Of a stretch of DNA of 64,000 bases, positions 55,785 through 56,934 are shown one piece after another. The DNA lies in NCBI GenBank assembly GCA_902605645.1, contig CACLDE010000001.1:1-64000 (forward strand), given 5' to 3'. How positions within the stretch are numbered: the first letter of the stretch is position 1; the number at the start of each line of letters is the position of its first letter. This stretch comes from an uncultured Pelagibacteraceae bacterium (GTDB taxonomy: Bacteria > Pseudomonadota > Alphaproteobacteria > Pelagibacterales > Pelagibacteraceae). The notes under the pieces are model-generated. The model did no database searches. It was given only the letters and a program-made list of their open reading frames with translations, and was not told the DNA's origin. The translations under genes and the position numbers were made by a program.

Positions 55785-55832
55785 TTTTAATCAAACTAAA
55801 AACCTTTTTTTTCACGTAAAAATAATTGACCT

Positions 55833-55857
55833 GAGATTCAATTTAAGGTTGAATCTC
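55833..55857. promoter_or_regulatory. Inverted repeat with two GANTC sites immediately upstream of ccrM
   Basis: GAGATTCAA-TTTAAGG-TTGAATCTC; 9-bp perfect arms, GATTC and GAATC sites, ends 3 nt before ATG at 55861. Confidence 0.75.
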
Positions 55858-55860
55858 TTA

Positions 55861-56934
55861 ATGTTTAAATTTCATAACAAAATTATAAACGGAGATTCCT
55901 TAAAAGAATTAAAAAAAATTCCTTCTAATTCTTTTGACTTAGTTTTTGCCGACCCTCCTTACAATATGCAAATCGGAGAAAAGTTAACTCGTCCAGATGC
56001 AAGTAAAGTAAATGGAGTTAACGATAAATGGGATCAATTTAACAGCTTTAAACATTATGATGATTTCTGTAAAGCATGGCTAACTGAATGTAAAAGAATT
56101 TTGAAAAACAGCGGAAGCATTTGGGTAATAGGTTCTTATCATAATATTTTTCGTTTGGGTTATCACTTACAAAATTTAAACTATTGGCTCCTTAATGATG
56201 TGATTTGGAGAAAAAACAATCCGATGCCTAATTTTAGAGGTACTCGATTTACTAATGCTCATGAAACTCTTATTTGGGCATCAAAAAATAAAAAATCAAA
56301 ATATACATTTAATTATCAATCTCTTAAGTGTTTGAATGATGATTTACAAATGAGATCTGATTGGACATTTCCAATCTGCAATGGAAAAGAGAGATTAAAG
56401 AAAAATGGAAAAAAAGTACATTCTACTCAAAAACCAGAAGCACTACTTCATAGAATTATATTAGCTACTACAAATAAGGGTGATAGCATTTTTGACCCTT
56501 TTTTAGGTACAGGAACAACAGCTGTAGTAGCAAAAAAACTAGGAAGAAATTACTGCGGAATAGAAAAAGAAAAAAAATATTTTAAAGCAGCTGATGATAG
56601 AATTAAAAAAACTAAGGTTATTGATAATAGTTATCTTGATACAATTAAAAATAATAAATCTAAACCCAGAATACCTTTTGGCTCACTAGTAGAATTAGGC
56701 TTATTAAAGCCTGGAACTTCACTATTTGATGAAAAGAAAAAAATTAATGCAAAAATCATGGCAGATGGGAGCATAAAATACAAAGAGTCTGAAGGTTCGA
56801 TCCATAAAGTTGCCGCAAAAATAGTGGGCTCAGATAGCTGTAATGGCTGGACTTACTGGCACTGTAATTTTAATGGTTCAATAGTTTTAATTGATAGTCT
56901 GAGACAAAATTTTATTGCAGAAAAACAGATTTAG
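55861..56934 (+). CDS. ccrM: Adenine-specific DNA methyltransferase, CcrM-type (predicted GANTC)
   Basis: VFADPPYNMQ, DPFLGTGTTAVVAKKLGRNYCGIE, C-terminal extension LGLLKPGTSLFD...GSIHKVAAKIVGSDSCNGWTYWH. Confidence 0.92.
   Translation: MFKFHNKIINGDSLKELKKIPSNSFDLVFADPPYNMQIGEKLTRPDASKVNGVNDKWDQFNSFKHYDDFCKAWLTECKRILKNSGSIWVIGSYHNIFRLGYHLQNLNYWLLNDVIWRKNNPMPNFRGTRFTNAHETLIWASKNKKSKYTFNYQSLKCLNDDLQMRSDWTFPICNGKERLKKNGKKVHSTQKPEALLHRIILATTNKGDSIFDPFLGTGTTAVVAKKLGRNYCGIEKEKKYFKAADDRIKKTKVIDNSYLDTIKNNKSKPRIPFGSLVELGLLKPGTSLFDEKKKINAKIMADGSIKYKESEGSIHKVAAKIVGSDSCNGWTYWHCNFNGSIVLIDSLRQNFIAEKQI

Follow-up and report, generated by a model that had tools for sequence, protein, structure and literature searches.

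SAR11 bacteria, which rank among the ocean's most abundant cells, methylate GANTC but do so without CtrA, the regulator that drives the methyltransferase gene ccrM in model alphaproteobacteria. This raises the question of what controls ccrM in these cells. We addressed it at one locus, within a 64,000-nucleotide stretch of DNA (hereafter the window) where an inverted repeat lies immediately upstream of ccrM, and at the related loci of other genomes.

The ccrM locus and its inverted repeat

The gene downstream of the repeat had been named ccrM in the preliminary description, and this is borne out by its best solved relative, the Caulobacter CcrM 6pbd (E=6e-134). The window protein also matched the NCBIfam CcrM model at E=1.5e-171, yet under the curated cut-off of that model. 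Neighboring genes encode a uracil-DNA glycosylase, RnhB, a FAD-binding enzyme and an HhH-GPD glycosylase, and no homologues of the window CcrM were found in viral contigs. The source genome is SAR11 (Pelagibacteraceae), its nearest relatives being SAR11 single-cell and metagenome genomes. Genome-wide counts refer to its own assembly (811 kb, 72% complete, 816 predicted genes). The features described below are collected in Table 1.

Table 1. Features at and upstream of ccrM, with positions in the window.
Feature	Position	Strand	Basis
parS-like motif TTTTTCACGTAAAAAT, 12/16 to TGTTTCACGTGAAACA, possible second site	55808..55823	.	motif counts upstream of ccrM
-35 element TTGACC	55826..55831	+	TTGAC invariant in 41/41 same-register loci
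inverted repeat GAGATTCAA-TTTAAGG-TTGAATCTC, proposed operator	55833..55857	.	read directly; core kept in 92/92 core loci
GANTC site 1, GATTC, between -35 and -10, ~-26	55835..55839	.	TTGAC +8/+9 site kept across registers
predicted -10 TTGAAT, identical with right dyad arm	55849..55854	+	17-nt spacing to -35
GANTC site 2, GAATC, overlaps -10	55851..55855	.	kept in 32/41 same-register loci
ccrM, GANTC adenine methyltransferase with C-terminal RAMA domain	55861..56934	+	Pfam PF01555 + PF18755; NCBIfam; 6pbd

The sequence agrees with the repeat as first described, with perfect 9-bp arms (55833-55841 and 55849-55857, loop at 55842-55848) that each hold one GANTC and end 3 nt before the ATG at 55861. 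The span originally given, 55833-55860, contains the repeat itself but overshoots its true end at 55857 by taking in the TTA (55858-55860) that separates it from the gene. A perfect 9-bp inverted repeat alone is not unusual in this AT-rich window, where 24 were found against 17 +/- 6 expected by simulation, but arms bearing GANTC are rare: one such repeat was found against 0.07 expected, and 5% of simulations gave at least one.

Conservation of the dyad in three registers

The comparison took in the window, 79 related loci on genome contigs and another 30 from further genomes. Of these, 92 are core Pelagibacteraceae loci, 4 come from basal family members and 14 from a second family, the last two groups serving as outgroup (n=18). 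Absence of the repeat upstream of orthologous ccrM genes had been named at the outset as the outcome that would speak against it. The dyad TTCAA-N7-TTGA was present upstream of ccrM in 92/92 core loci and in 0/18 outgroup loci, and a protein tree of 91 distinct rows supported the core clade (100/99). The conserved core can be written ATTCAA-N7-TTGA(AT), which in the window is ATTCAA at 55836-55841, N7, and TTGAAT at 55849-55854; two loci (L032 and L060) have T, not A, at the first position.

The start of the dyad falls in one of three registers when counted from the first T of TTGAC: +10 (41 loci, window included), +27 (15 loci) and -13 (36 loci, the Pelagibacter type, to which L032 and L060 belong). 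It lies over the spacer and -10 in the first, over the start point in the second and over the -35 in the third, with centers near -16, +1 and -40, respectively; these are on different helix faces but always over core promoter elements, and in every register the dyad overlaps the RNA polymerase footprint. Promoter elements are partly shared with the dyad: its right arm is the -10 in the +10 type and the -35 in the -13 type, while in the +27 type it is the left arm that overlaps the -10.

In the +10 loci both 6-bp arms and TTGAC are invariant (41/41), against an average of 64% for the upstream region, and the arms are unchanged across ccrM proteins down to ~72% identity to that of the window. 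The outer base pairs of the repeat showed no covariation among relatives. Because the arms are invariant and the positions outside them do not covary, the selected object is a dyad with 6-bp arms plus the -35 and not a long stem.

The tree requires seven changes of register type when the outgroup is counted, so that more than one shift of register is probable. The distance from dyad to ATG is the same in the +10 and +27 types, which suggests that the promoter elements, and not the dyad, have moved, a promoter apparently rebuilt in evolution around a retained operator. Three basal family members (L249, L251 and L252) have a degenerate dyad-like sequence, ATTCTA-N7-TTGAA, just past a TCTATT -10, which may represent an earlier version of the operator.

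Promoter elements and predicted transcription start

Both TTGACC and TTGAAT were found at the coordinates and spacing previously assigned to them, and the suggestion that the palindrome overlaps the promoter holds, since in TTGACC-N17-TTGAAT the right arm is the predicted -10. This -10 is weak and was not called by a simple promoter scan. From the spacing, transcription is predicted to start at or adjoining 55861.

The gap from -10 to ATG was 6 or 7 nt in 41/41 loci of the +10 register, 12-14 nt in 34/36 of the -13 loci and 23 nt in the +27 loci. Such gaps predict leaderless or short-leader ccrM mRNAs. With the ATG only 6-7 nt past the -10, the mRNA of the window register would be leaderless and the repeat untranscribed, judging by spacing. 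A TTG start codon at 55849 was considered and rejected, its frame relation to the ATG not being conserved (6 or 7 nt gap). A wider TTGAC-N15-GANTCTAAT promoter class in near relatives was also discarded, with one match in 31 genomes. In the second SAR11-order family (L113-L123, L253-L255) the dyad is absent, yet the ccrM promoter retains GANTCs, mostly as TTGACC-GANTC...GAATCATATT; its ccrM start is likewise predicted to be leaderless, with the ATG 6-7 nt past the -10 in 13/14 loci.

GANTC sites at the promoter

A GANTC in the spacer, at TTGAC +8/+9 and corresponding to ~-27, was found at the same position in 37/41 loci of the +10 register, 35/36 of the -13 register, 12/14 of the second family and 0/15 of the +27 register. 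Among the 41 loci of the +10 register the left GANTC was lost in 4 and the right in 9, never both in one locus. Between 75 and 6 nt upstream of TTGAC, GANTC was counted 94 times across all loci, while seven composition-matched control words each came to 0-29. One such site lies at TTGAC -24, where N is A in 16 cases, C in 11, T in 5 and G in 4; the subclade of the window itself has no GANTC there. At +8 N takes all four bases and at +9 it is T (37) or A (23). Retention of GA-TC with a free N is the pattern expected from selection for the methylation site itself, although these related sequences are not independent of one another.

In its own assembly ccrM is one of only 2/816 predicted genes with two GANTCs within 60 nt upstream. 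Across the window (1-64000) GANTC is under-represented, with 114 sites against 167 +/- 13 expected.

The dyad arms of the -13 register have no GANTC, so the dyad is not simply a methylation-sensitive palindrome; palindrome and GANTC sites are separable features. The preliminary description had proposed that the GANTC-bearing palindrome could act as a methylation feedback switch. This feedback idea has partial support: GANTC motifs are indeed conserved in the promoter, but the fusion of palindrome and methylation site into one element needs revision.

Confinement of the dyad to ccrM

A survey of 31 genomes showed that, in the genus of the window, the exact dyad is mostly present in one copy or absent. 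Allowing one mismatch, the own genome gave 10 matches, the same number as a reversed control (10), and at 0-1 mismatch no match apart from that of ccrM lay upstream of a predicted gene. The non-ccrM matches inspected in 14 further genomes fall within long open frames, with a single exception in L134. The dyad thus appears essentially confined to ccrM, its sole recurrent site in the genomes tested. A regulon sharing the dyad was rejected, near-matches being at control level and mostly coding, and the few intergenic matches with two mismatches in the source genome, such as one close to an aldehyde dehydrogenase gene, were judged to be chance.

GcrA, CtrA and candidate binders

GcrA was found in 25/31 genomes, that of the window included, and matches the solved Caulobacter GcrA; the Pfam match was above cut-off and the NCBIfam match below the curated cut-off of its model. 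The query used to search for CtrA proved fit for purpose, with a full-length match of 89% identity in one genome. CtrA was detected in 0/31 relatives at E<=1e-36 (13 of these at least 90% complete), against 55/76 class members at 1e-40. Pelagibacter has been reported to have no ctrA (PMC2877005). The best CtrA-like matches, some adjoining gcrA, were rejected as they look like PhoB, lying beside phoU-like genes with 29-38% identity to CtrA. In two relatives (L145 and L156) gcrA adjoins a PhoB-like response regulator together with a phoU-like gene.

Methylation of a different motif by the enzyme had been the other outcome named as counting against the original idea; it is GANTC methylation that has been measured in Pelagibacter (PMC9516812, PMC12570018). 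In the Pelagibacter NP1 culture 3477 of 3482 GANTC sites were fully methylated, and in the SHIPPO_PRO_33 genome 42 sites lacked methylation in every sample (PMC9516812). A presence/absence comparison with part of the genome of one basal member, inspected by eye, returned many housekeeping genes together with GcrA and proteins resembling LexA, RpoH and Fur, and singled out no dyad binder.

Proposed mechanism and alternatives

The dyad with its registers, conservation and near-single copy, the conserved GANTC sites, the presence of GcrA and the lack of a CtrA match led us to propose a CtrA-independent, methylation-responsive and probably GcrA-assisted ccrM promoter gated by a putative dyad-binding protein, to which we give about an even chance. 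These features are seen in the sequence itself; we infer from them that the promoter is active, where it starts, that it is repressed and that GcrA acts on it, along with any sign of the feedback. A sigma-70-type promoter, TTGACC-N17-TTGAAT, would start a leaderless or nearly leaderless ccrM mRNA and would receive two inputs. Through the first, the spacer and -10 GANTC sites would be substrates of CcrM and promoter activity would follow methylation or replication state, probably read via the sigma-70 cofactor GcrA, CtrA being missing; the effect on transcription could be of either sign, up or down. Through the second, ATTCAA-N7-TTGAAT would be bound by a putative dimeric protein that competes with RNA polymerase and so acts as a repressor, the candidates being a dedicated regulator or CcrM itself.

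Repression is the simplest reading because the three registers all cover core promoter elements, on different helix faces; a steric repressor is favored over a contact-making activator since only a repressor would tolerate all three. The dyad also has what a repressor operator would be expected to have, being symmetric, conserved and overlapping the promoter. Set against the proposed mechanism are the weak -10 of the window, a start site placed by spacing and the absence of spacer GANTCs from the +27 register. The window sites (AGATTCA and TGAATCT) also do not fit, on either strand, the extended GcrA motif of activated promoters, YGAKTCG (PMC7987155). An operator confined to ccrM, combined with methylation sites at fixed positions, would make the timing of SAR11 CcrM directly testable.

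CcrM is a possible binder because ccrM is the sole recurrent dyad target. A CcrM dimer might bind the dyad, for example via its RAMA domain, so that excess enzyme shuts ccrM independently of methylation. A sole target is what self-regulation would predict and the RAMA domain is present, but the -13-register arms offer the enzyme no GANTC and a dedicated regulator accounts for the same facts; we consider this autorepression unlikely. A fuller version, in which CcrM is its own dedicated dyad autorepressor while its methylation of the promoter tunes GcrA-dependent firing, seems to us slightly less likely still. If true, a streamlined cell cycle would have exchanged the CtrA circuit for a two-layer, single-gene feedback loop.

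We likewise have little confidence that an activator binds the dyad, or that the dyad merely mirrors promoter elements. Arm and core element do coincide in two registers, at the -10 in the window type and at the -35 in the -13 type, and a center near -40 in the latter would suit an activator. However, the centers at ~-16, +1 and -40 fall on different helix faces, +1 is unsuited to activation, and the arm that has no promoter role is equally invariant.

It is very unlikely that the repeat works as RNA, either as a hairpin hiding the start codon, the version raised in the preliminary description, or as an rnhB terminator. Folded alone, its 25 nt give a stable hairpin (-10.3 kcal/mol, z -4.5), a terminator-like match was reported in the window, and a hairpin could act in read-through RNA from rnhB. 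Yet in two of the three registers (+10 and -13) the dyad is wholly upstream of the inferred start, far from the ATG in the -13 type; the flanks have no covariation or compensatory changes outside the invariant arms, the T-rich tail is not conserved among relatives, and there was no Rfam match. A DNA operator is favored because all three registers overlap the RNA polymerase footprint. A chance palindrome in AT-rich DNA, for which the frequency of perfect 9-bp repeats in the window might speak, is scarcely credible for a dyad kept in all 92 core loci with arms invariant down to ~72% CcrM identity.

Comparison with known systems

The methylation-linked promoters of Caulobacter have GANTC at -29 (ctrA P1) and -24 (podJ P2) (PMC4287350). 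The SAR11 promoter resembles these GcrA/CcrM promoters in having a GANTC that lies between -35 and -10, about as far from the start as in Caulobacter (PMC4287350), and both GcrA and CcrM are encoded in either system. Unlike them, it controls ccrM itself and has an added gene-specific dyad over the promoter; as its sites also depart from the extended GcrA motif, we do not claim membership in that class.

In Caulobacter and Brucella, ccrM is CtrA-regulated, and feedback from methylation of its own promoter region has been suggested (PMC2877005, PMC3973325). The likeness lies in control of ccrM and in putative feedback from methylation of its own promoter. The SAR11 case differs in having no CtrA match and a conserved dyad, and in a predicted leaderless mRNA with the GANTC sites upstream of the start, not in a leader. 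The earlier analogy with Caulobacter ccrM is loose: CtrA has no match and the predicted start leaves no leader.

As a methyltransferase gene whose promoter overlaps the enzyme's own target sites or a putative operator, SAR11 ccrM may also be set beside the methyltransferase genes of restriction-modification systems. Such genes are self-regulated by C-proteins or through promoters that overlap the enzyme's own site. SAR11 CcrM, in contrast, is an orphan cell-cycle enzyme, and no endonuclease or C-protein gene was seen among the five neighboring proteins scanned.

A second motif upstream of ccrM

Within 160 nt upstream of ccrM, the parS-like words TTTCACGT/ACGTGAAA occurred in 40/110 loci, whereas none of 200 shuffled 8-mers did so in more than 9. 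Besides the window, the motif is found in L031-L054, L060-L081 and L239-L242, and its position, too, shifts between registers. Possible roles are those of a ParB site or of a second operator.
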